Shown here in pieces: positions 34,911 to 47,045 of a stretch of DNA of 59,291 bases (the stretch's first letter is position 1; every line of letters starts with the position of its first letter). The position numbers were made by a program, and so were the translations under genes. The notes under the pieces are model-generated. The model ran no database searches. It had not been told where the DNA came from and saw nothing but the letters and a program-made list of their open reading frames with translations. The DNA is from Mariprofundus sp. EBB-1 (GTDB lineage Bacteria > Pseudomonadota > Zetaproteobacteria > Mariprofundales > Mariprofundaceae): assembly GCF_003665155.1 (NCBI RefSeq), contig NZ_RCFQ01000017.1:1-59291 (forward strand), written 5' to 3'.

Positions 34911-35876
34911 ATGCATGCAACACTGCCATTATTGGAGAAGACTGACTTCCCTGCCATCACTCGTGGAAAGCTCAATACGCTGCAAGTTAATTTAGGCTAT
35001 TTATGTAATCAAACCTGTTTACATTGCCATGTGGATGCAGGTCCTCGTCGCACCGAAATTATGGATAAAAAAACGGTGCAAACCGTGCTTGACTACTTGC
35101 GTGTGCAAGATATCAAAACACTTGATTTGACCGGTGGCGCACCGGAGATGAATCCGCATTTTGTTTACCTCGTAGAGCAGGCTAGTGCTATGGGCGTGCG
35201 TATCATTGATCGCTGTAATCTGACCATTCTGGAAGAAGAAAACTATAGTGATACAGCTGAGTTTCTTGCGAAATACAAGGTCGAAGTCGTTGCGTCGCTG
35301 CCCTGTTATTTGAGTGATAATGTTGATGCTCAGCGTGGTAAAGGGGTGTTTGATAGCAGCATTAGAGCCATTCAGCGTTTGAATGCACTTGGGTATGGTA
35401 TCGAGGGTTCAGGTTTAACATTAACACTGGTCTATAATCCACAGGGGGCAAACCTGCCGCCTTCACAGAGTGAACTGGAAATTGCTTATAAACGCGAACT
35501 GCACTTGCGTTTTGGCATTGTTTTTAATCAACTCTTTACCATCACCAATATGCCCATAAAACGTTTTGGTAGTACACTTATTTCACAAGGAAAATTCGCA
35601 TCTTATATGCAGCTACTTAAAGAAGTTTATAGCGAAAAAAACCTCGATGGACTGATGTGTAAAAGCTTAATAAGCGTGGACTGGAGAGGTTATGTTTATG
35701 ATTGTGATTTTAATCAAATGCTGAATCTTCCCATACACAGAGAGGGTGGTTTAGCTACGCACCTTTCTGAACTGATTGAACAGGAGATCTCCGGATCTTC
35801 AATTGTTGTGATGGATCACTGTTATGGCTGTACTGCCGGCCAGGGTTCCAGTTGCGGCGGAGCATTGGAGGAGTGA
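34911..35876 (+). CDS. arsS: Arsenosugar biosynthesis radical SAM protein ArsS
   Basis: 321 residues. The radical SAM cluster motif is CNQTCLHCH near residues 34-42, followed by LDLTGGAPEMNP and a SPASM-like C-terminus (MCKSLISVDWRGYVYDCDFNQM, HCYGCTAGQGSSCGG). This matches the ArsS family, which adds the deoxyadenosyl group to dimethylarsenicals on the way to arsenosugars. Its stop codon overlaps the next gene by one base. The arsenic role is supported by arsM two genes later. Confidence 0.92.
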   Translation: MHATLPLLEKTDFPAITRGKLNTLQVNLGYLCNQTCLHCHVDAGPRRTEIMDKKTVQTVLDYLRVQDIKTLDLTGGAPEMNPHFVYLVEQASAMGVRIIDRCNLTILEEENYSDTAEFLAKYKVEVVASLPCYLSDNVDAQRGKGVFDSSIRAIQRLNALGYGIEGSGLTLTLVYNPQGANLPPSQSELEIAYKRELHLRFGIVFNQLFTITNMPIKRFGSTLISQGKFASYMQLLKEVYSEKNLDGLMCKSLISVDWRGYVYDCDFNQMLNLPIHREGGLATHLSELIEQEISGSSIVVMDHCYGCTAGQGSSCGGALEE

Positions 35877-36523
35877 TGGCACTACATGATGAACTTGAAG
35901 CGTTTAACCGCGGATTCGTAGCCCAGGTTCCCGATAATATTGTAAGGACCATGAATGATGCGGTGCAGATACTACAATCTTCAGGCTTAACCGAACGGGC
36001 TTTACAAGCTGGACAACAACATGCTCCTGATTTTGATCTCCCTGAACTGAATGGGGAGAAAGTAAAATTGTCTGAAGCGCTAAAGCGTGGTGTGGTTGTT
36101 ATCACATTCTATCGAGGCAGCTGGTGTCCATACTGTAATTTGGAGATGCAGGCCTTGCAGAAAGCGCTGCCTGACATTGAAGCTGCGGGCGCTCAATTGA
36201 TCGCCATAGCTCCCGAACTGCCGGAATTTGCTGCGCAAACGCGGGATAAAGGAAACCTTACGTTTCCGCTGTTGAGTGATCAGAACAATGAAACTGCCAA
36301 GCAATATGGTTTGGTATTCACCTTACCTGAAAGCTTGAGGCCTATTTATGAGAGTTTTGGCATCGATTTGCCAGCCAGTCACGGCAATGATCATTTTGAA
36401 CTACCTATGCCTGCGACCTATATTATTGCACCTGATGGCAAGGTGATGAGTGCTTTTGTAGATGTGGATTATACCAAACGTATGGAACCATCTGACATAA
36501 TAAAAATATTGAAAACCATTTAA
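35876..36523 (+). CDS. Peroxiredoxin-like (AhpC/TSA) protein of the arsenic operon
   Basis: 215 residues from the ATG at 35876, which overlaps the arsS stop. A thioredoxin fold has the redox motif CPYC in FYRGSWCPYCNLEM near residue 80, followed by LPMPATYIIAPDGKV. The N-terminal helix region resembles peroxiredoxin-like proteins that accompany arsS/arsM. It may supply reducing power or detoxify peroxide. Fifteen bases separate it from arsM. Confidence 0.82.
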   Translation: MALHDELEAFNRGFVAQVPDNIVRTMNDAVQILQSSGLTERALQAGQQHAPDFDLPELNGEKVKLSEALKRGVVVITFYRGSWCPYCNLEMQALQKALPDIEAAGAQLIAIAPELPEFAAQTRDKGNLTFPLLSDQNNETAKQYGLVFTLPESLRPIYESFGIDLPASHGNDHFELPMPATYIIAPDGKVMSAFVDVDYTKRMEPSDIIKILKTI

Positions 36524-36537
36524 CTACGGAGAAAACA

Positions 36538-37368
36538 ATGAGTGTAAAAGCTGATAATGTGCGTCAGCACGTGCGTAAATCTTATGCGGAAGTGGCAGAT
36601 GCCAGTAATGATGGTGATTGTTGCGGTGTGGAATCCAGTTGCTGCGGCGTCTCTGATGATGCGGCGATCAATACACTGATCTCCACACGCTTGGGTTACT
36701 CTGAAGATGACCTGGCTAATGTACCGGATGGTGCCGATATGGGCCTTGGCTGTGGTAATCCGCGGGCAATTGCTTCACTGCGTCCGGGTGAAGTGGTTAT
36801 TGATCTTGGTAGCGGTGGTGGTTTTGATGCATTTCTGGCGGCCCGTGAAGTTGGTGAAAGCGGTCATGTGATTGGCATCGACATGACCCCCACCATGTTA
36901 TCCAAAGCGCGTAACAACGCCGAAAAAGGAAAATTCAGCAATGTAGAGTTTCGCCTTGCGGAGATTGAATACCTGCCGATTGCAGATAACACTGCCGACA
37001 TCATTATTTCTAACTGTGTGATTAATCTTTCACCGCATAAGGAACTGGTATTTGCTGACGCATTTCGTGTGTTGAAACCGGGTGGACGCCTGGCCATCTC
37101 CGATGTGGTGGCAACAGCGGAGATGCCGGATGAGATGAAAAATGATCCGATATTGCATGCAGGCTGTATGGCTGGTGCATCCATGATTGATGTGCTGGAG
37201 ATCATGATGGCCGATGCCGGTTTTGAGCAAATTAGTATTATTCCAAAAGACAGTTCGCGCGAATTTATTCGTGACTGGGCACCCGGTCGGGGCGTGGAAG
37301 CGTATGTTGTATCGGCTTACATTGAAGCGAAGAAGCCGGGCGGTTGCTGTTCAGGGGCTTCTTGCTGA
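36538..37368 (+). CDS. arsM: Arsenite S-adenosylmethionine methyltransferase
   Basis: 276 residues. The methyltransferase glycine motif is VIDLGSGGGFDAFLAA near 86-101. The arsenic-binding cysteines of ArsM are recognisable: DMGLGCGNP (Cys near 70), SNCVINLSP and HAGCMAGA. An N-terminal Cys pair cluster (CCGVESSCCG) and a C-terminal CCSGASC are also present. It turns arsenite into methylated arsenicals. Last gene of the ars operon; 112 bases then lead to the next operon. Confidence 0.93.
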   Translation: MSVKADNVRQHVRKSYAEVADASNDGDCCGVESSCCGVSDDAAINTLISTRLGYSEDDLANVPDGADMGLGCGNPRAIASLRPGEVVIDLGSGGGFDAFLAAREVGESGHVIGIDMTPTMLSKARNNAEKGKFSNVEFRLAEIEYLPIADNTADIIISNCVINLSPHKELVFADAFRVLKPGGRLAISDVVATAEMPDEMKNDPILHAGCMAGASMIDVLEIMMADAGFEQISIIPKDSSREFIRDWAPGRGVEAYVVSAYIEAKKPGGCCSGASC

Positions 37369-37480
37369 TAGTCTAAGGTCTCAAACCCTGCAATTTCTAT
37401 GGTATTCTGTATGTTAGCCTGTATGTTTTCAACTATGAAAGTTTCATATAAACAAAGAAGAGAGTGAGGTTGATTTTCTC

Positions 37481-39109
37481 ATGCGTTTAGCGAAAACGCT
37501 GCGTAATAATCTCCTTTTCTTATTGGTGGAATCCGGTTCCCAGATACAGCTATTGCAACAATATACCGAAGAGGAAGATGCAAGCCTGATTCAGCGTGTT
37601 ATGGAACGCCGAGGTTATGCATATAATCTTAACCTGCGCATTCAAAACAGCTGCATAGAAATGCTGAGTGATAGCCAGATTGGTGAAGGCGTGACCATTC
37701 GCACTGTCGGTATTATTGCAACAGAGCTTACAAATATCACGATTCTATCTCGTGATTGCATACAGCAACTTGGTGATTTACGGCATAATCACCGGCTTGA
37801 TTTGAAAGCTTATCAGCCGGCACTGCGACAGGTCTGTAAAAGTATGGTGCTGATTGAAGATGCCTTGATGGGAAGTGATACACGACTTGCTCTTAAAATC
37901 GGTCACGGTGAGTACAAACTGAACCGAATCTCTCAAAAGTTATTGAAAGCGTTTACAGCTCAGTTGAAGCAGAAAAAATATACAGAAGATCTGGTTACCG
38001 GTCTGTTTGTTGCGCATAGCCTTGGCCAGATGGGTGATGCACTGTTGCGCATCAGCGAATCGATTATTTCCAACAATATTGGTCAACCTATGGATATGCA
38101 GCGTTATCACGCAATGCAGGAGACTATCACCGCCTGGAAGGGCGAAAATATGATGGACAATATAGATATTCAGCAGCTTGCAGAAACACGCTCTGGCAGT
38201 GGTATCTCATCAATTCAAGAGATAGACAGTGATCAGCCTCGGGTGATCTATAAAAGTGGAGAGAAACGCAAACTTAAAGAAGAACTGCATGGAGTGGAAA
38301 CCTGGCATGCAGTGTATCCAGGTTTGGCACCGCAAGTACTGGCTTACAACAAACGCAGTGATGGAGCATCCTTATTGATTGAGCACTTGAACGGGATGAC
38401 GCTGGAGCAAATTGTACTGCATGAACCGATGCGTATGATGACTCAGGCGATTCAAGCGCTTGGTAAAACAGTGACCTCGGTTTGGAAAACTAGCCGAACC
38501 AATATTCCTGTCTCTGCCGGTTTTATTCGCCAGACACGCAAACGTCTGGCTGATGTTTATGCCGTGCACCCATCATTTCGGCAGGGCAATGCACGGATTT
38601 GTGCATCGACGCTATCTACATTTGAGTCGTTGCTTGTAGCTGCTGAAAAAATTGAGAAAAAGCTGTCTCTTCCGAACAGCGTTCTGATCCATGGCGATTT
38701 CAATGTTGATAACATCCTGTATGACCCGGAAAGCAAAAGCATTCGTTTTATCGACCTGCATCGCTCAACCTATATGGATTATGTACAGGATGTGTCGGTA
38801 TTTATGGTCTCAAATTATCGATTGCAGGTGTTCGATAGCTCTATTCGCCGCCGTATTCGTAAACAGGTGTGTGATTTTTATGCTATTGCACGAAAGTATG
38901 CAAAAAAGAACAATGACCATACATTTGAGGTTCGCCTGGCTCTTGGCCTGGCGCGCTCATTTGCTACCTCAACACGTTTTATTCTGGACGAATCCATGGC
39001 ACAGCGTATGTTTTTGCGTGCGCACTATCTGTTGTTACAGGTAACGCAATGTGACATGAAGAAACCCCAGCGTTACCGATTGCCAATCAAGGAGATATTC
39101 AGTGACTAA
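37481..39109 (+). CDS. PhoU-like / aminoglycoside phosphotransferase-fold fusion
   Basis: 542 residues. The first 230 are helical and look PhoU-like (two stretches of LxxLGDLRHNHRLDL and VAHSLGQMGDALLRI character). From about 240 an APH-type kinase follows, with VLIHGDFNVDNILYD near residue 404 and IRFIDLHRS near 425; the catalytic HGD, Asn and Asp are present. It resembles small-molecule kinases such as ThrB or choline kinases, but its substrate is unknown. It overlaps the next gene by eight bases, and together with five genes downstream forms one operon. Confidence 0.8.
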   Translation: MRLAKTLRNNLLFLLVESGSQIQLLQQYTEEEDASLIQRVMERRGYAYNLNLRIQNSCIEMLSDSQIGEGVTIRTVGIIATELTNITILSRDCIQQLGDLRHNHRLDLKAYQPALRQVCKSMVLIEDALMGSDTRLALKIGHGEYKLNRISQKLLKAFTAQLKQKKYTEDLVTGLFVAHSLGQMGDALLRISESIISNNIGQPMDMQRYHAMQETITAWKGENMMDNIDIQQLAETRSGSGISSIQEIDSDQPRVIYKSGEKRKLKEELHGVETWHAVYPGLAPQVLAYNKRSDGASLLIEHLNGMTLEQIVLHEPMRMMTQAIQALGKTVTSVWKTSRTNIPVSAGFIRQTRKRLADVYAVHPSFRQGNARICASTLSTFESLLVAAEKIEKKLSLPNSVLIHGDFNVDNILYDPESKSIRFIDLHRSTYMDYVQDVSVFMVSNYRLQVFDSSIRRRIRKQVCDFYAIARKYAKKNNDHTFEVRLALGLARSFATSTRFILDESMAQRMFLRAHYLLLQVTQCDMKKPQRYRLPIKEIFSD

Positions 39110-39998
39110 CCTTAAAATTGGAGTCATCGGTTTGCCGGGGAAATGGTCCAGTGAAGTGCTTGCCCAAGCGGTAATGATGCGCACCGGGGCACCATGCCCT
39201 GTGATTGATATACAGGATGTGTGGCTTGATCTGGCCGATAATGCTTTACGGTACGGAGGTCTTAATCTGTGCGATTTTGATGGATTATTGGTTAAAAAAA
39301 TAGGTTCGGAATATAGTCCCAATTCACTTGATCGACTGGAGTTGTTACGTGTAGCAGAAGCTGCAGGTGTACGCGTGTTCAGCCCTGCATTGAATATCTT
39401 ACGCCTGATTGACCGATTAAGCTGCACCGTTACCCTCCATAATCATGCAATCCCGATGCCTCCGACCTGCATTACGGAACATAGTGAAAAAGCGCTTGAA
39501 ATGGTAAACCGCTTTGGTAGCGCAGTATTCAAACCACTTTATTCAACCAAGGCGCGCGGCATGATGGTAATTGATGCCGCTGATTCAGAGACAGTGCAAC
39601 GCCAGCAGATTTCCAGCTTTCAGCAGCAGCACCCGATGATGTATATCCAGAAAAAAATAGTTCTGCCGGGCCGAGATCTTGGTATGGTCTTTTTAGGTGG
39701 TGAATATCTGGGTACATATGCGCGGGTATCGCAGTCGGATACTTGGAATACCACCATCCTCAGTGGTGGAAAATATGCTGCATATAAGCCTTCACAGGAG
39801 TTGATTGATCTGGCCTATGCGGCTCAGAAACCATTTAATATGGACTTCACTACTGTCGATGTGGCTGAATCAGAAACGGGGCCCATAGTCTTTGAAGTGT
39901 CAGCTTTTGGAGGTTTTCGAGGTGCAAAAGAGGGAATCGGTATTGATGTTGCAACGCTCTATGTTGACTATGCAGTAAAAACATTGAAAGGTGGTTAA
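39102..39998 (+). CDS. GAK-type ATP-grasp enzyme
   Basis: 298 residues of RimK-like ATP-grasp type. The ATP-binding segments are AVFKPLYSTKARGMMVID and MYIQKKIVLPGRDLGM, and a metal-binding segment is PIVFEVSAFGGFRGAKEGIG. It fits the ATP-grasp member of the GAK arrangement (Grasp, Amphi-Trp, Kinase). Such enzymes join a carboxylate to an amine using ATP, but the acceptor is not known. It begins inside the previous gene, and the kinase gene starts two bases after its stop. Confidence 0.8.
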   Translation: MTNLKIGVIGLPGKWSSEVLAQAVMMRTGAPCPVIDIQDVWLDLADNALRYGGLNLCDFDGLLVKKIGSEYSPNSLDRLELLRVAEAAGVRVFSPALNILRLIDRLSCTVTLHNHAIPMPPTCITEHSEKALEMVNRFGSAVFKPLYSTKARGMMVIDAADSETVQRQQISSFQQQHPMMYIQKKIVLPGRDLGMVFLGGEYLGTYARVSQSDTWNTTILSGGKYAAYKPSQELIDLAYAAQKPFNMDFTTVDVAESETGPIVFEVSAFGGFRGAKEGIGIDVATLYVDYAVKTLKGG

Positions 39999-39999
39999 A

Positions 40000-41199
40000 A
40001 TGAGTCACGGAATAACTAAGGAAGAGCTGCGCAGCACGATGCTTGCAGATGTTAGCCTGTGTGAAGAGACACTAGAGCTGGCGCTACCAGAAATGCAGAT
40101 TCTAATTCGAAGCAATTCAATGCAGTTGCTGAATATATTGCGTCATTATTTCCAACATATCGTGTCTCCTATTAAGAGTACTTCATCTGTGAATGATGGT
40201 ATTGCGATAGAAGTAGTAGCGATAGAATCTCCAGTCATCAATCTTGACTTGCCGTTGCATGACTGGTCACGTGAAGCAGGTAAACGTGGAAAGAAAGATG
40301 CATATCTCGACCTGGATGACGGACGTTGCATTTATAAGGTGCGAACCGGCATGACTTTTTTGCAAAGTTTGCAGCATCGGATTGCAGCAGGCCCATGTAT
40401 TACGAATAGCAATCAAGTGATTAATTTCATTAATAACCAATATATAAACCTATTACAGCAACGTGGTTACTTAATCTGTCATGCAGCAGCATTGGCTGAA
40501 AATAATAGAGCTATCGCTATTGCCGGTTTTTCCGGTGGTGGAAAATCGACCACGATGCTGCATTTGATGTCTGATCCGCGTTTTGATTATGTCACGAATG
40601 ATCGCCTATTTATTCGTGCAGATGAAGAGGGCATGTGTGCGCGTGGCATCCCTAAACTTCCGCGTGTGAATCCAGGTACGCTGCTGCATAACCCGCAATT
40701 GAAAGAGATCTTACCCCAAGAGCGCATTGCCGAGTTACAAGACATACCACAGCAAGCATTGTGGAATCTGGAAGAAAAGTATGATGTCGATATTGCCGCG
40801 GTATATGGTGAATCACGTTTTTCCGCTGAGCCTGAACTGGCACACTTTCTGATTCTGAATTGGTCACACGATAGTCAGGTTCAAACACAGGTTACCGAGG
40901 TGAATCTGGCAGAACGAAGCGAACTGCTCGATGCCATTATGAAATCTTCAGGGCCATTTTATCAATATGCCGATGGTAGTTTCTATCGTGATCATACGCA
41001 TCTGAATCGAGATGCCTATATTTGCATGCTTGCAGGGGTTCATGTCTATGAAGTGAGCGGTCGTGTTGATTTTGAATGCGTACAACAATTTTGTCTACAG
41101 CAGTTATGTGAAATCTCACCATCATACAATACAGTCACAAAATCAGCTTCCGAAACAGTAAGGGTCGATGATGGGCCTAAAATAAGATATCCGGTTTAA
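40000..41199 (+). CDS. HprK-related kinase (GAK system, HprK-related kinase B type)
   Basis: 399 residues. The P-loop AIAGFSGGGKSTT near residue 172-184 and the downstream VTNDRLFI and GIPKLPRVNPGTL follow the HPr kinase/phosphorylase C-terminal domain. In HprK this phosphorylates a Ser of HPr; no ptsH is here. The extended N- and C-terminal parts are not of the standard HprK type. The ATG at 40000 with GAAAGGTGG upstream is preferred over the GTG at 39991. A kinase of unknown target inside the GAK-like operon. Confidence 0.8.
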   Translation: MSHGITKEELRSTMLADVSLCEETLELALPEMQILIRSNSMQLLNILRHYFQHIVSPIKSTSSVNDGIAIEVVAIESPVINLDLPLHDWSREAGKRGKKDAYLDLDDGRCIYKVRTGMTFLQSLQHRIAAGPCITNSNQVINFINNQYINLLQQRGYLICHAAALAENNRAIAIAGFSGGGKSTTMLHLMSDPRFDYVTNDRLFIRADEEGMCARGIPKLPRVNPGTLLHNPQLKEILPQERIAELQDIPQQALWNLEEKYDVDIAAVYGESRFSAEPELAHFLILNWSHDSQVQTQVTEVNLAERSELLDAIMKSSGPFYQYADGSFYRDHTHLNRDAYICMLAGVHVYEVSGRVDFECVQQFCLQQLCEISPSYNTVTKSASETVRVDDGPKIRYPV

Positions 41200-41211
41200 T
41201 AAGGTAGATAT

Positions 41212-41913
41212 ATGAGTACCAATTATGCGGTCTTTATTCGGCATGGGGATTATCATCATCAAGCCGCCACACCGGGAGCCTATCAACCTTTTCCTCTTAC
41301 AAATGAAGGGGAAGAACAGGTGGAAAACTGTATCGCGAAACTCATTCGATTCAGTCAGCAGCATGATTTAACCATCGCTCCTACACTACACAGCTCAATT
41401 CTGCTGCGTGCCTGGAGCACCGCAGAAATTATTCGTCGGAAACTGGCAACTATTATTCCGAATGAAAGCTATTCACTGGTCGAAACAGAGCAGTTGTGTG
41501 AGCGATCAGTTGGTAGTCTGGCCAATCTTTCTATCTCCGAAATCGAACAGGTCGTGCAGGATGATCCTCGTTATGAAAGACCACCTTCCGGGTGGAAATC
41601 TGATAGTTATTATCGGCTACCATATCCGGGTTCAGAGTCATTGATGCAGGCAGGCGAACGCGTGTCGGCCTACATCAATCAGGTAATGTCTACACTGCCT
41701 GAAAATGCATCCTTAATGCAGTTATTTATAGGTCACGGGGCAGCATTTCGGCACGCTGCTTGTGATCAATCCATGTTGGGTTTTGATGATATTAAAAAAC
41801 TTAGCATGTTTCACGCTGAACCAATCTATTTTACACTGAATGAAGATACAGGGTGGCAACACCGCGCAGGCGAATGGAAAATACGTTCGCAGCATTCAAA
41901 TTATACGGACTAA
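41212..41913 (+). CDS. Histidine phosphatase family protein
   Basis: 233 residues. VFIRHGDYHH has the catalytic RHG motif and LFIGHGAAFRH the second catalytic His, so the active site is complete. It resembles phosphoglycerate mutase-like phosphatases rather than SixA in length. Placed between the kinase and the metallophosphoesterase, it may reverse the phosphorylation. The stop overlaps the next start (TAATG). Confidence 0.85.
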   Translation: MSTNYAVFIRHGDYHHQAATPGAYQPFPLTNEGEEQVENCIAKLIRFSQQHDLTIAPTLHSSILLRAWSTAEIIRRKLATIIPNESYSLVETEQLCERSVGSLANLSISEIEQVVQDDPRYERPPSGWKSDSYYRLPYPGSESLMQAGERVSAYINQVMSTLPENASLMQLFIGHGAAFRHAACDQSMLGFDDIKKLSMFHAEPIYFTLNEDTGWQHRAGEWKIRSQHSNYTD

Positions 41914-43286
41914 TGATGACAAACAAGAAAAAGCAATGTTCTCTACCCGATTACCATGGCCTCAAATGGCTGGATGATTCTTTACCTATAGCCTTGCCTG
42001 AGACCACGCGTGACTGGCTTGATTGTAGTAAACACGGACTTAGGCAACGCAAGACCAGCGGTTTGAAAAGCCGAAGTACGGTAAAATCACTACTGCAATC
42101 GCATGATTGGCAGTGGCCACATCGTTCGACCGTTTTTATCTCCGATCTACATGCTGATGGTGATGCACTGTTAGCATCTCTGGTTGCCAGTGGCGGTATA
42201 AAGAAAACAGGTAAGGATGATTATCACTTTAAACTTACAGAACAGGGACGATCCATGCTCTTTATCTTTGGCGGTGATTTCTTTGATAAAGGTCCGAGTA
42301 ATCTTCGTCTGTTGCGTGTATTGCACATGTTTATCAAAACAGGAGCACGTGTGCGACTCCTAGCAGGTAATCATGATATTCGTGTTTTATTCGGTATGCG
42401 CAGTGTAGGCCAGACAGAAGATCCACATAACGGTCATTTTTTTATCCGAATGGGAGCCAAAGCGATTCCTTTTCTGCTTGAAATTCGGGATGAGTATCTG
42501 TCTGACAACAATGCGCTGAAAGCGATGCCTGATGAAGAAACCTGTATCAAACGTTTGTTTCCGACTGAGGCCTGGTGGCAGCAGTTTCCAGAGATGGCCT
42601 CATGGGTGATGCCTCCAGAATCTATCAGCAGGGAGATGGCTAAAATTAAACATAAGGCTGAGCGCTTCGAGATGTTGTGTGAACAGGCCGGACTGAGTCT
42701 GCGTGAAGCCTATGCAGCAGCAGTTAAATGGCAGCAGTTGTTTTTATCACAAGAAGGGGAATTCTACTGGTTTTTCAAGCGTATGCGACTTGCATATCGC
42801 AAGGGTTCATTCCTGTTCGTACACGCAGGTATCGATGACCGAATTGCAGTGATGTTACGTGATAATAATACCGGCTTTTTGAATCAGCAGTTCAAGCAAC
42901 AGATTCAGGGGAGTCCCTTTGAATTTTATTACGGACCTGTAGCGAACACTATCCGTACCAAATACCGTACGATAGATATGCCATTGTCCGGAATTGGTGC
43001 CAAACAAGTGCGTGATGCGGGTATACATGCCATCGTGCATGGACACCGTAATTTACATCGAGGTCAACGTATTGCTCTGCGAAAAAAACTGCTTCATTTT
43101 GAATGTGATGTGACATTGGATCGTCACTCCCGACGAAAAGAAGGGCTACGCGGTGCAGGTGCTGGCGTTACCCTTGTTCAACCCTCCGGTTATATTCTAG
43201 GAATCAGTACAGACTATCGCGATATTAAAGTGTTTCATCCCGAATCCATCTTGGCGGACGCAGGAGATTTTCATGCAACAAAGTAA
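41913..43286 (+). CDS. Calcineurin-like metallophosphoesterase
   Basis: 457 residues with all five PPP-type motifs: VFISDLHADGD, FGGDFFDKGP, LLAGNHDIR, FLFVHAGIDD and IVHGHRN, which hold the two metal ions. PPP-like enzymes of this size remove phosphate from proteins or nucleotides. It is the second predicted phosphatase in the operon. The start is the ATG at 41913 or 41916; the gene overlaps its neighbours on both sides (14 bases with the next). Confidence 0.88.
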   Translation: MMTNKKKQCSLPDYHGLKWLDDSLPIALPETTRDWLDCSKHGLRQRKTSGLKSRSTVKSLLQSHDWQWPHRSTVFISDLHADGDALLASLVASGGIKKTGKDDYHFKLTEQGRSMLFIFGGDFFDKGPSNLRLLRVLHMFIKTGARVRLLAGNHDIRVLFGMRSVGQTEDPHNGHFFIRMGAKAIPFLLEIRDEYLSDNNALKAMPDEETCIKRLFPTEAWWQQFPEMASWVMPPESISREMAKIKHKAERFEMLCEQAGLSLREAYAAAVKWQQLFLSQEGEFYWFFKRMRLAYRKGSFLFVHAGIDDRIAVMLRDNNTGFLNQQFKQQIQGSPFEFYYGPVANTIRTKYRTIDMPLSGIGAKQVRDAGIHAIVHGHRNLHRGQRIALRKKLLHFECDVTLDRHSRRKEGLRGAGAGVTLVQPSGYILGISTDYRDIKVFHPESILADAGDFHATK

Positions 43287-43572
43287 GAAAGTTTTTCATC
43301 ATGAATCGTTGGAAGATACAAAATCTCTGCGAAGCCTTATGCAAGCGGTTACCGATGGCCTGGAAAGTGGTGAATTAAGTTTCAGCGATGACAGTGATGA
43401 GATTATCATGATTCCAAAAGGGTTGCTGCATTTCAAGCTTGCTGCTGCTCAGGAAGAAGGACGCAACCGCATAAATATCCGCGTGACATGGCATGATGAT
43501 GTTGATACGAAGCCGGCAAAAAAATCATTAGCCATTCGCAGCAAACAGAAAGAAAAGAGAAAGGGTGGCTAA
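43273..43572 (+). CDS. Amphi-Trp domain-containing protein
   Basis: 99 residues. It fits the small amphi-Trp domain found with GAK kinases: a helical first half (SLEDTKSLRSLMQAVTDGLESGEL), strands with IIMIPKGLLHFKLAA, and the end IRVTWHDD with the Trp. The tail is Lys-rich (KKSLAIRSKQKEKRKGG). It could be the carrier or substrate acted on by the kinase and ATP-grasp enzyme; this is inference. Last gene of the operon. Confidence 0.75.
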   Translation: MQQSKKVFHHESLEDTKSLRSLMQAVTDGLESGELSFSDDSDEIIMIPKGLLHFKLAAAQEEGRNRINIRVTWHDDVDTKPAKKSLAIRSKQKEKRKGG

Positions 43573-43600
43573 GCCTATTTTATCAAAATACTGTTATTGA

Positions 43601-43617
43601 ACTGTAAGGATTACAGT
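43601..43617 (+). promoter_or_regulatory. Perfect palindrome upstream of the NPCNPC repeat gene
   Basis: ACTGTAA GGA TTACAGT, arms of seven bases, lies 44 bases before the start at 43661, a position typical of an operator. I do not recognise the regulator; it is not a standard Fur or LexA box. Confidence 0.35.
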
Positions 43618-43660
43618 CTACTCTCGTCTAAGCATCAGTAATTCAAGAGAGGATATGAAT

Positions 43661-43915
43661 ATGAAATCAATGACAACATTAGCTATCGCACTGCTGCTTG
43701 CCTTGGGTCTGTCTGCTGCACCTGCATTTGCAGGCCATCATGATATGAACCCGTGCAACCCATGCTCAATGAAAAAAACGATGAATCCATGTAACCCGTG
43801 CGCCATGCAACATAAGATGAACCCATGTAATCCATGTGCCATGAAAAAGCATGCCAACCCATGCGATATGCAACATAAAATGAATCCGTGTAATCCTTGT
43901 TCTAAAGGGCATTAA
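43661..43915 (+). CDS. Exported Cys-rich NPCNPC repeat protein
   Basis: 84 residues. A signal peptide is clear (MKSMTTLAIALLLALGLS...AFA, cleaved before GHHDMNP). The mature part is four MNPCNPC(A/S)M-type units and one single NPC unit, spaced by KKT, QHK and KKH. Nine cysteines fall in about 60 residues, with Met and His between them. This composition suggests a periplasmic metal-binding protein, probably for a soft metal such as copper, but there is no direct evidence. The ATG at 43661 lies eight bases after AGAGG; an ATG at 43655 is too close to it. Confidence 0.8.
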   Translation: MKSMTTLAIALLLALGLSAAPAFAGHHDMNPCNPCSMKKTMNPCNPCAMQHKMNPCNPCAMKKHANPCDMQHKMNPCNPCSKGH

Positions 43916-43935
43916 TTCTTTATCTCAATCGTTGC

Positions 43936-43976
43936 CCCCCAAGACTCTGCGTGCAAAACGTGCAGAGTCTTGGGGG
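43936..43976. terminator. Strong bidirectional hairpin between convergent genes
   Basis: CCCCCAAGACTCTGC pairs perfectly with GCAGAGTCTTGGGGG over 15 bp, with an 11-base loop. It sits between the NPCNPC gene (plus) and the response regulator (minus). There is no long T-run on either side, so it may terminate weakly or protect transcript ends. Confidence 0.6.
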
Positions 43977-44039
43977 TCATTTACGTCACACGGTGTTTTT
44001 CAACGCTTAGAAAACGGACAATCATTGATAAGGTGATTG

Positions 44040-44501
44040 TTATGTAAGCAAGTTACGTGAACAAAACGGACAATCATATAACCCGGCATTCACGCATGTT
44101 GAGCGTGGGTTGTTTGCCTTTTCAGAAAGGTGTTTGTGGCATGGTAGAATGACATCTCTGACCTTTTCTAGTAAGGCTTCTGGATGAATAGGCTTATTTA
44201 AAACCATGCAGGTCTCTTGAACTGCTGTTTTGTTGTGTTCGCAATAAGCATTTCCTGAGATAAAAAAGATAATTTGGAACGGTAAGACTTTACGTATCGC
44301 CAATGCCAAATCATAACCACTGATACCGGGCATTGAGATGTCGCTAATAACAGCGATAGGAGACTCAAAACTGGCGGAATTCAGATATTGCATGTATTGA
44401 TTACCTGATTCAAAATAACATACGCGATAGCCTGCATCAGAAAGAATGGCGTCAGTGGTTTCGCGAATGAGTTCACTATCATCAATTACATGCAGCATCA
44501 T
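44040..44501 (-). CDS. Single-domain response regulator with Cys-containing tail
   Basis: 153 residues. The receiver domain has VIDDSE near the start, phosphoacceptor Asp in VISDISMPG (near residue 54) and the conserved Lys in VLNKPIHP. No output domain follows. Residues about 122-153 form a tail with four cysteines (LPCHK, TCVNAG, DCPFCSR), which could bind a metal. It lies between the two NPCNPC genes on the opposite strand, so it may sense or respond to the same signal; no kinase is adjacent. Confidence 0.75.
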   Translation of the reverse strand: MMLHVIDDSELIRETTDAILSDAGYRVCYFESGNQYMQYLNSASFESPIAVISDISMPGISGYDLALAIRKVLPFQIIFFISGNAYCEHNKTAVQETCMVLNKPIHPEALLEKVRDVILPCHKHLSEKANNPRSTCVNAGLYDCPFCSRNLLT

Positions 44502-44669
44502 GGATATAATTTATAGCATAGGATTTTAATAAACCAAACTATAATATTATTATGGTTATTGTTGGGGAGCATGCAACTTGCGGGATAATCTATATACACG
44601 CAAGCGAATAGAACCCATCTCCTAAATAGCAGGAGATATTTCTAACATCTGTTGTAAGAAGCGGGAGGC

Positions 44670-44707
44670 AATGCCGACTTCCACATCATGACCGGAGTAC
44701 CGGCATT
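44670..44707 (+). promoter_or_regulatory. Hairpin-forming leader before the NPCNPC-cytochrome gene
   Basis: AATGCCG near 44670 and CGGCATT near 44701 can pair, and CATCAT/ATGATG pair in a competing register. This lies just before the strong GGAGGAG site at 44714-44720. A further 7-bp hairpin (ATCTCCT/AGGAGAT) is upstream near 44618. Possible transcript regulation; not proven. Confidence 0.3.
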
Positions 44708-44726
44708 TATGATGGAGGAGATATCG

Positions 44727-45437
44727 ATGAATAATATATTAAGATTAATTTACGCCATGCTTATCAGCATAGGTTTGTTTAGCACCCCGGCCCTGGCTGG
44801 GTCACATGCGAACCCATGCAATCCATGCGGGATGCAAAAGCATATGAACCCATGTAACCCATGCAGTATGAAAAAACATATGAACCCGTGTAACCCATGC
44901 GCCATGAAAAAACATATGAATCCGTGTAACCCATGCAGCATGAAAAAACATATGAATCCGTGTAACCCATGCAGCATGAAAAAACATATGAACCCATGCA
45001 ATCCATGCGCCATGAAAAAACACTCCAATCCTTGCAGCATGAAACCCAATCCTTGTTCCATGAAGAACCCTTGCTCGATGGATGAGGATGCTGCTAATCA
45101 AAAGACACCGATTCGCAAACCTGCATTCAAAAACTATCAGGAAGCTGCGTCCCTCGGTGCCAAAATGTGGAAAGATGAAAGTTTAGGTACATCAGGATTG
45201 GCATGTCTCTCATGTCATGCAGATCATGAACTGTTGAATTTAGATCGTAATCAGAATTTCCCACATTATGTCAAGATGGTAGGTGATGTAGTGACACTGG
45301 ATCAGATGATCAACTACTGCATGCTTAATCCAATGAAAGGAAAACAGTTTGGAAAAAATTCAAAAGAACTCACTGCGATGGCGGCATATTATCGCGCCTA
45401 TCGTATGCAGTTCATGAAAGAACAACGCGCAAAGTAA
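44727..45437 (+). CDS. Exported NPCNPC-repeat cytochrome c
   Basis: 236 residues from the ATG at 44727, which follows GGAGGAG by eight bases; a longer reading at 44688 is less likely. A signal peptide (ending PALA-GSH) precedes six NPCNPC units of 12 residues each, mostly [12 protein letters not shown], then three short NPCSM units. A monohaem cytochrome c domain follows, with CLSCH at residues 160-164 and a possible Met ligand in MLNPMKG. It is thus a periplasmic electron carrier joined to a thiol-rich, probably metal-binding, region. The arrangement is unusual. Confidence 0.85.
44808..45023 (+). repeat. Six 36-bp tandem repeats encoding NPCNPC units
   Basis: Units run 44808-44843, 44844-44879, 44880-44915, 44916-44951, 44952-44987 and 44988-45023. 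Units 4 and 5 are identical at every base. The others differ by few, mostly silent changes, which indicates recent duplication or gene conversion. The reading frame is kept throughout. Confidence 0.92.
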
Positions 45438-45806: not shown

Positions 45807-47045
45807 GTGACGAAACCCTTGAGTTTGAAGCAGTCCGTGTTGGCAGTGATCTCTATCATTGGCGGATTGATGCTGATGGCTGCAGCCATCGATCCAGGTC
45901 TGCCACTTGGCTACTGGGATCAACCATCGGCAAAAGTTCCATCTTCTCACAACTGGTCTGAACTTGAAAAAGATCTGCGTCCGGAGGCATGCGCACAATG
46001 CCATGCCGCTCAATTTAATGTCTGGAAAAAGAGTCTGCATGCGCACGCCTACTCACCAGGTCTAGTGGGGCAGTTTCCGGGCCAGGGGCTTGCCTATGCC
46101 AATGATTGTCTGGTGTGCCATGCACCCTTGAAAGAGCAACTTTATACAGATTCAACAGACATGGATGATTCGATTCTCTTGCGTCTGAAACATGCCGAAG
46201 GATTTGATGCTGATGCCGATTATGATGTGAATGATCCAGATGCTAAACGGCTCCCTCTGAGACACACCGGCGTGAGTTGTGCCGTTTGTCATGTACGTAA
46301 TGGCGATCGTTTCGGGCCACCACCCAGAGTGAGTGGAGCAGTAGGTAAACAAGATACTCCGGCCCATGGCGGGTTCACAGCTACCAAGGACTTTGAACAG
46401 TCGCAGTTTTGTGCATCATGCCATCAGTTTCCTGACTATATGGCAATTAATGGAAAACCTTTAGAAAACACCTTAACAGAATGGAAAAACAGCTCTTTTC
46501 CCGATAAAGGAGTAACATGTCAAGTCTGTCACATGCCGGATAGAGCCCATGAATTCAGAGGTATCCACGATCCAAAAATGGTCAAAAAGGGGCTCACTTT
46601 TTCACTCACTCAGCAAAAGAACAGTGTCTATTTCAGCATTGCATCCACATGGATAGGGCACGCATTTCCAACGTATGTCACACCCAAAGTGATTGTTGAA
46701 GCAGAAGCCTTGAACGGTAAAGGTAGCATCATTCAACATCAGCAGTGGGAGATCATTAGAGAGGTTGCTTACCAGGGTGATGGTTGGAAAGAGTTGCGTG
46801 ATACCCGCATCATGCCGGGTGAAACACGCCAGTTCTTACTCAATCCCTTACCAACAGACGCCCGCAGTGTGCGCTATAGGGTACGGGTGATTCCCGATAA
46901 TTTTTACAAAGGGATTTATGAGAGCCTGCTATCAGATGATCTGACTGCTGTAGCTGGAGCACATATTCGCAAGGCCAATGAACAGACTGCTAAAAACGAT
47001 TATCTGCTCTATGAAGAGGTGATTACCCTTAACCAAGCGCATTGA
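45807..47045 (+). CDS. Pentahaem cytochrome c family protein
   Basis: 412 residues from a GTG start with GGAG five bases upstream. A single N-terminal membrane or signal segment (residues 10-28) comes first. Five haem-binding CXXCH motifs follow: CAQCH 62-66, CLVCH 101-105, CAVCH 158-162, CASCH 202-206 and CQVCH 238-242. The C-terminal 150 residues lack haem motifs. It fits the cytochrome c554-like multihaem group in the periplasm. The redox partner is unknown, but the adjacent NPCNPC cytochrome is a candidate. Confidence 0.9.
   Translation: MTKPLSLKQSVLAVISIIGGLMLMAAAIDPGLPLGYWDQPSAKVPSSHNWSELEKDLRPEACAQCHAAQFNVWKKSLHAHAYSPGLVGQFPGQGLAYANDCLVCHAPLKEQLYTDSTDMDDSILLRLKHAEGFDADADYDVNDPDAKRLPLRHTGVSCAVCHVRNGDRFGPPPRVSGAVGKQDTPAHGGFTATKDFEQSQFCASCHQFPDYMAINGKPLENTLTEWKNSSFPDKGVTCQVCHMPDRAHEFRGIHDPKMVKKGLTFSLTQQKNSVYFSIASTWIGHAFPTYVTPKVIVEAEALNGKGSIIQHQQWEIIREVAYQGDGWKELRDTRIMPGETRQFLLNPLPTDARSVRYRVRVIPDNFYKGIYESLLSDDLTAVAGAHIRKANEQTAKNDYLLYEEVITLNQAH

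Follow-up and report, generated by a model that had tools for sequence, protein, structure and literature searches.

What do two exported proteins made largely of Asn-Pro-Cys repeats do in the envelope of an iron-oxidising bacterium? Their genes lie on a contig of Mariprofundus sp. EBB-1 (NCBI RefSeq GCF_003665155.1, NZ_RCFQ01000017.1), whose 59,291 nucleotides are called the window here. An initial annotation described two exported NPCNPC-repeat proteins, one of them joined to a cytochrome c, suggested metal binding coupled to redox, and knew of no described function. That last point holds: no Pfam or NCBIfam model matches the array, and the open-access literature searched contains no paper with the NPCNPC protein string or the name of DUF6969, a family that recurs beside these genes in other bacteria. 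The initial annotation was also right to place repeats rich in thiols in the periplasm, next to an electron carrier. It did not recognise the SoxA-type, Cys-carrying nature of the haem domain, the pentahaem cytochrome partner and the wide spread of the arrays.

Two exported NPC-array proteins and a SoxA-type haem domain

The features of the NPC locus itself are as follows.

43655-43915, plus strand: small exported NPC-array protein of 86 aa; signal peptide, then four NPCNPC units and a single NPC
43936-43976, plus strand: 18-bp perfect RNA hairpin directly 3′ of the small NPC gene (-34.6 kcal/mol, z -7.3)
44043-44501, minus strand: single-domain response regulator between the two NPC genes (Response_reg, 4e-15)
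44727-45437, plus strand: NPC-array/cytochrome c fusion of 236 aa, the adjacent NPC ORF, with a one-haem domain
44727-44798, plus strand: signal peptide of the fusion, with cleavage predicted from sequence between ALA and GSHA
44799-45080, plus strand: fusion array of six NPCNPC units with a 12-aa period, plus three NPC units
45123-45434, plus strand: SoxA/TsdA-type monohaem cytochrome c domain (Pfam PF21342, structure matches)
45204-45218, plus strand: haem-binding CLSCH (alignment)
45306-45308, plus strand: Met at -4 from the distal Cys, at the invariant Arg position of SoxA/TsdA catalytic domains
45318-45320, plus strand: invariant distal Cys, the predicted axial haem ligand

The small protein starts at 43655, with 43661 as the next in-frame ATG. 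Its signal peptide ends at AFA, followed by GHHD, and its mature 60 residues include 9 Cys, 6 His, 8 Met and 9 NPC. The fusion is preceded by a good ribosome-binding site, GGAGGAG, just 5′ of 44727; its signal peptide is followed by a 94-aa array, then by a short linker and finally by a single c-haem domain with one CxxCH. Both proteins thus bear signal peptides and one is a cytochrome c fusion, as initially described. The description of both as largely MNPCNPC units is exact for the small protein, but the fusion array occupies less than half of its mature chain. The fusion array contains 15 Cys, 14 Met, 7 His and 13 Lys, and zero acidic residues. In both arrays Cys makes up 15-16% of the residues and is arranged as CxxC (C-N-P-C), accompanied by Met and His. 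No stable fold was predicted for the fusion array (AF2 pLDDT 33-43); the model of the full fusion is poor overall, with a mean pLDDT of 47.6, and informs little beyond the lack of a confident array fold.

The 36-bp tandem array has a TRF score of 300. The repeats are not a chance pattern: the genome contains ten NPCNPC DNA sites, every one inside the two NPC ORFs, and no site of the reversed control pattern. When the ten 18-base units were compared pairwise, the differences at the three codon positions numbered 0, 0 and 127. Because all 127 fall at third positions, the arrays are translated, and purifying selection conserves the protein and not the DNA repeat.

The hairpin behind the small gene has no strong or clear T-run and is probably a transcription end or a 3′ stabiliser. 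The response regulator, encoded opposite to the NPC genes and also present in the sister genome, has a Cys-rich tail (CVNAGLYDCPFCSRN) with a CPFC motif.

The haem domain matches PF21342 with 46.7 bits (cut-off 27, E=3e-12) and was modelled with an AlphaFold2 pLDDT of 87.5. SoxA and TsdA are its best Foldseek matches. With VIA-align, the N-terminal domain of R. sulfidophilum SoxA (1h31) ranked top (Z 11.2, 2.0 Å, 89 residues), followed by TsdA (Z about 9.5). It resembles the N-terminal domain of SoxA (54-145) more than the catalytic domain (177-282), and by hmmsearch its distal Cys aligns to the Cys of MINAC in the N-terminal domain of 1h31. In our alignment of 29 fusions, which come from Zeta-, Gamma- and Alphaproteobacteria and from some unplaced MAGs, the CxxCH, a Pro-His, a Met and the distal Cys (29/29) are all invariant. 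His/Cys haems of this type have reported low potentials (PMC6879331).

The fold, the CxxCH and the distal Cys are thus common to the NPC haem domain and the Cys-ligated cytochromes SoxA and TsdA. However, the fusion has one haem only, carries an array, and lacks both the invariant Arg and the TsdA Ser of the thiosulfate-oxidising site. TsdA Arg119, which lies four residues ahead of the ligand Cys, is invariant in TsdA and SoxA (PMC4423706). At this position, located by its offset from the Cys, nearly all fusions have Met, and two sequences have Ile or Phe; the position of TsdA Ser127 is Pro. The SoxA equivalog TIGR04484 scores 45 bits, far under its cut-off of 110. As judged from sequence and predicted fold, the domain is a Cys-carrying cytochrome of the SoxA type without the defining feature of the sulfur-oxidising enzymes, and a thiosulfate oxidase is not favoured, the key Arg being absent.

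In one genome (G057:C62:20259-20952; L036, L191) the fusion appears broken, with a stop within the haem domain and NPC units decayed to NPW; it adjoins intact arsS and pentahaem genes.

The NPC pair, a pentahaem cytochrome and arsenic genes

The initial annotation had proposed a search for NPCNPC proteins and their gene neighbours across genomes, and this search brought out how widely the arrays occur, the pentahaem partner and the adjacency to arsM. The relevant neighbours in the window are listed below.

34911-35873, plus strand: arsS, radical SAM protein of arsenosugar biosynthesis (TIGR04167, 463 bits, cut-off 300)
35852-36520, plus strand: ResA/SelL-like thiol redox protein between arsS and arsM (family-level matches under cut-offs)
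36538-37365, plus strand: arsM, arsenite methyltransferase (NF008823, 350 bits, cut-off 263)
37347-43643, plus strand: GAK cassette (PhoU/APH-like, GAK ATP-grasp, HprK-related B, two phosphatases, amphi-Trp)
45807-47045, plus strand: pentahaem cytochrome c, conserved partner, with five CxxCH

The NPC pair and the pentahaem cytochrome form a gene module. Orthologues of the small protein and the fusion recur as a pair in most loci examined across the Zetaproteobacterial order, which we sampled with 78 genomes. The NPCNPC pattern is present in 42 of these and the fusion haem domain is strongly matched in 37; the pentahaem gene occurs in 36 of the 37 fusion-bearing genomes, compared with 9 of the 41 others. 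It also follows the fusion in G078, a genome from another order, and, among the matches listed, lies near NPC genes in gammaproteobacterial, Dadabacteria and Nitrospinota loci. The best named family for this partner is that of the ExtKL-type multihaem cytochromes of Geobacter (NF040886, E=4e-19), but its score of about 68.5 bits stands against a cut-off of 250, and all 26 members of its cluster have exactly five CxxCH. No porin gene was noticed near the pentahaem gene. In G045 (C154:7407-10014) the pentahaem gene lies ~0.6 kb from arsS, with the NPC fusion on a different contig.

The arsS/arsM pair often shares one apparent operon with the module. In four genomes (G056, G050, G053 and G037) arsS, arsM, the small NPC gene, the fusion and the pentahaem gene follow each other on one strand with gaps mostly of 16-154 bp; in G037 the pentahaem gene is preceded by small spurious-looking ORFs, and in G053 it has an FGE-like gene behind it. 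The gene order is identical in G042 and G074. By coordinates, arsM lies within about 2.5 kb of the NPC genes in 13 of the 42 NPC-positive genomes, against a naive random expectation of about 0.13, which is not a true probability as the genomes are related. The adjacency is scattered on a poorly resolved tree and may be lineage-specific: many NPC loci of the order, such as those of Ghiorsea, are not beside arsM or arsS. Both enzymes, above their curated cut-offs in the window, are cytoplasmic, whereas the NPC module is exported and is missing from many genomes with arsS and arsM, which are found in 63 and 60 of the 78 genomes, respectively. The three NPC/pentahaem genes appear to have been gained or lost as a block, because in the NPC-less G046 and G054 arsS-arsM leads into rsmB and the three-gene block is absent; G054 has an FGE-like gene between.

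In the window, arsM is split from the NPC genes by the 6.3-kb GAK cassette, in which HprK-related B scores 348 bits and the GAK ATP-grasp 424 bits. In the sister genome G064, the match to the window DNA runs up to 37346 and starts again at 43644, with ~80 bp between. Therefore, the cassette was either inserted in the window or lost in G064. GAK was considered as a functional partner of the NPC system and rejected, given its absence from the sister at the exact site and its sporadic occurrence (7 of the 78 genomes).

NPC arrays beyond the Zetaproteobacteria

A collection-wide scan for NPC arrays gave at least 110 matches, a minority of which are unrelated DNA repeats; the pattern requires at least one AAC codon, and the distribution counts are lower bounds. 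Combined with ORF analysis, the scan placed exported NPC arrays, among the matches listed, in Alpha- and Gammaproteobacteria, Acidobacteria-like genomes, Poribacteria, Zixibacteria, Dadabacteria, Nitrospinota, SAR324 and others. A signal-like hydrophobic segment stands ahead of the array in 97 of 111 NPC proteins, across many phyla. The arrays occur alone or fused to a SoxA-like cytochrome c, a cytochrome P460 (PF16694) or a YceI-like domain. Since these are at least three unrelated kinds of domain, the array itself is probably a functional module. Spacers rich in Met typify the iron-oxidiser lineage, and the spacers (AAK) of most alphaproteobacterial loci are without Met and His. In the Poribacteria and Zixibacteria MAGs (L088, L098, L152, L173) NPC arrays stand at both ends of the YceI-like domain, and the Poribacteria loci have a CRP-like regulator gene nearby.

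Outside the order the recurrent neighbours are DUF6969 (at least 27 loci), an FGE-sulfatase-like protein (at least 18) and YeeE/YedE sulfur transport (at least 10, in alphaproteobacterial loci), and further a histidine kinase, a MerA-like FAD reductase, DUF3179 and DUF547. Among the matches listed, most alphaproteobacterial loci have YeeE/YedE, FGE-like and DUF6969 genes in place of arsenic genes. A Marinobacter mobilis locus encodes an ArsM-like and an ArsC-like protein, DUF3179, an NPC-cytochrome and DUF6969 on one strand; its ArsM and ArsC matches are under curated cut-offs, and the related locus G130 is without ars genes. In one alphaproteobacterium an NPC-P460 gene has an arsM-like gene in its vicinity.

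A search from DUF6969 provided an independent route to more NPC arrays, without the double NPC. As an exclusive partner of NPC arrays DUF6969 was rejected; it also occurs without them, for example beside Mla transport genes in Azospirillum. The FGE-sulfatase-like proteins beside NPC genes (L159:3362-4258 and at least 17 other loci) share a CGxC, conserved within the active-site loop GGSWdDkgCGvC, in place of the usual Cys spacing of FGE; the FGE-like gene of G054 belongs to the same family. Plasmid-borne metal islands were dropped as a functional clue, as they came down to a single partial match on an unannotated Cupriavidus megaplasmid.

Candidate ligands and proposed electron flow

Putative metal binding coupled to redox, as first suggested, is still the best reading of these proteins. 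The chemistry of the array, with its CxxC, its Met and His and, in the fusion, no acidic residues, supports a thiophilic ligand, and the two Cys totals, 9 and 15, are odd, which speaks against a structure built purely on disulfides. We tentatively propose, at somewhat less than even confidence, that the exported CxxC-thiol array binds such a ligand and is wired through the His/Cys haem to the pentahaem cytochrome. In the envelope, array Cys, together with Met and His in the Mariprofundus lineage, would bind the ligand, and the small NPC protein would act as an abundant sponge. The redox partners would be the fused haem and the pentahaem cytochrome, giving electrons to the thiols or the bound ligand or taking electrons from them; this would either keep the array reduced and loadable or oxidise what is bound. 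Arsenic that gets through would be handled in the cytoplasm by ArsM and ArsS, and in other bacteria the array would be coupled to different redox or carrier domains, such as cytochrome P460 or YceI.

For Mariprofundus the most likely ligand would be As(III), with Cu(I) as a near alternative. Arsenite is favoured in the order because arsM and arsS are the sole element-specific neighbours recurring there, and because vicinal thiols are good binders of As(III). Of the metals named initially, iron found no specific support and copper is possible; the neighbours themselves point to arsenic in this order and to sulfur import in Alphaproteobacteria.

The alphaproteobacterial transporters also bear on the possibility that the array thiols carry sulfane sulfur or persulfides, which the SoxA-like haem would oxidise or transfer in a manner comparable to SoxAX with SoxYZ. 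SoxA and TsdA are the nearest relatives of the haem domain, and in G256 a rhodanese-like and a YeeE-like gene, judged by eye, lie near DUF6969. We nevertheless consider a sulfur carrier unlikely: the invariant Arg and the TsdA Ser are replaced, the SoxA equivalog falls far short of its cut-off, no SoxYZ or other sox gene is among the recurrent neighbours, and to our knowledge the P460 and YceI fusions have no role in sulfur oxidation. Similarly small is the chance that the arsenic neighbourhood is incidental and that the proteins are a redox-controlled envelope chaperone or store for copper, or for mixed soft metals. Cu(I) is classically bound by Cys, Met and His, and the Met-rich spacers of the iron oxidisers would suit this role, but the recurrent neighbours include no recognised copper exporter, oxidase or regulator.

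A metal-free function, in which the haem chain would switch each CxxC between its dithiol and disulfide forms and the array would serve as a redox buffer or electron store, appears very unlikely. Each NPCNPC unit is a CxxC, haem proteins are among the fused domains, and genes for MerA-like FAD disulfide reductases adjoin small NPC genes in several alphaproteobacteria; however, that enzyme is probably cytosolic, the Cys counts are odd, and single-Cys units (NPCNPG, NPCNPD) are tolerated. Highly improbable, finally, is a modified-peptide precursor whose array Cys are altered by a neighbouring FGE-like or DUF6969 enzyme, an idea akin to the copper-binding RiPPs. Both genes recur outside the order, and C-N-P agrees with C-x-P, the core of the motif that FGE targets. 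Yet neither is near most Zetaproteobacterial loci, the window included, DUF6969 has no match in any genome of the order searched, and the CGxC loop does not have the usual FGE spacing. The DUF692/MNIO maturase of Bufferin-type copper RiPPs is absent from the annotated recurrent neighbour clusters.

A haem-wired thiophilic array, the reading we prefer, has a close parallel in the metallothioneins and other Cys-rich metal stores, which like the NPC arrays are short, repetitive and Cys-dense, with no stable apo fold predicted. In contrast to cytosolic metallothioneins, the NPC proteins are exported, are built on the NPC repeat, and are covalently joined to haem or other domains. If envelope binding of arsenite or copper is true, they would be to the space outside the cytoplasm what metallothionein is inside it, but coupled to haem, and could help to account for the life of iron-mat bacteria on iron oxides loaded with arsenic. 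There is a real chance that the array, as a putative Cys-rich binder of soft elements, is something categorically new. It is possible, though doubtful, that NPC arrays are a general envelope thiol scaffold of many phyla, plugged into different redox domains, with bound As, Cu or sulfane sulfur oxidised or reduced on the haem-wired array; this would be a periplasmic metal(loid) or sulfur chemistry without known counterpart.

The C-N-P-C repeat marks an exported family that has no entry in the searched family libraries and whose range extends from iron-oxidising Mariprofundus to Pelagibius, Marinobacter, Acidobacteria and Poribacteria. The system also offers a concrete entry to several unknown families, such as the pentahaem cytochrome and DUF6969. 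In the latter (L110:2618-3361 and relatives) a strongly conserved His/Asp/Tyr pattern, HYPxGDVYD, QYYYHxH and EHGHFHTF, resembles a metal site.
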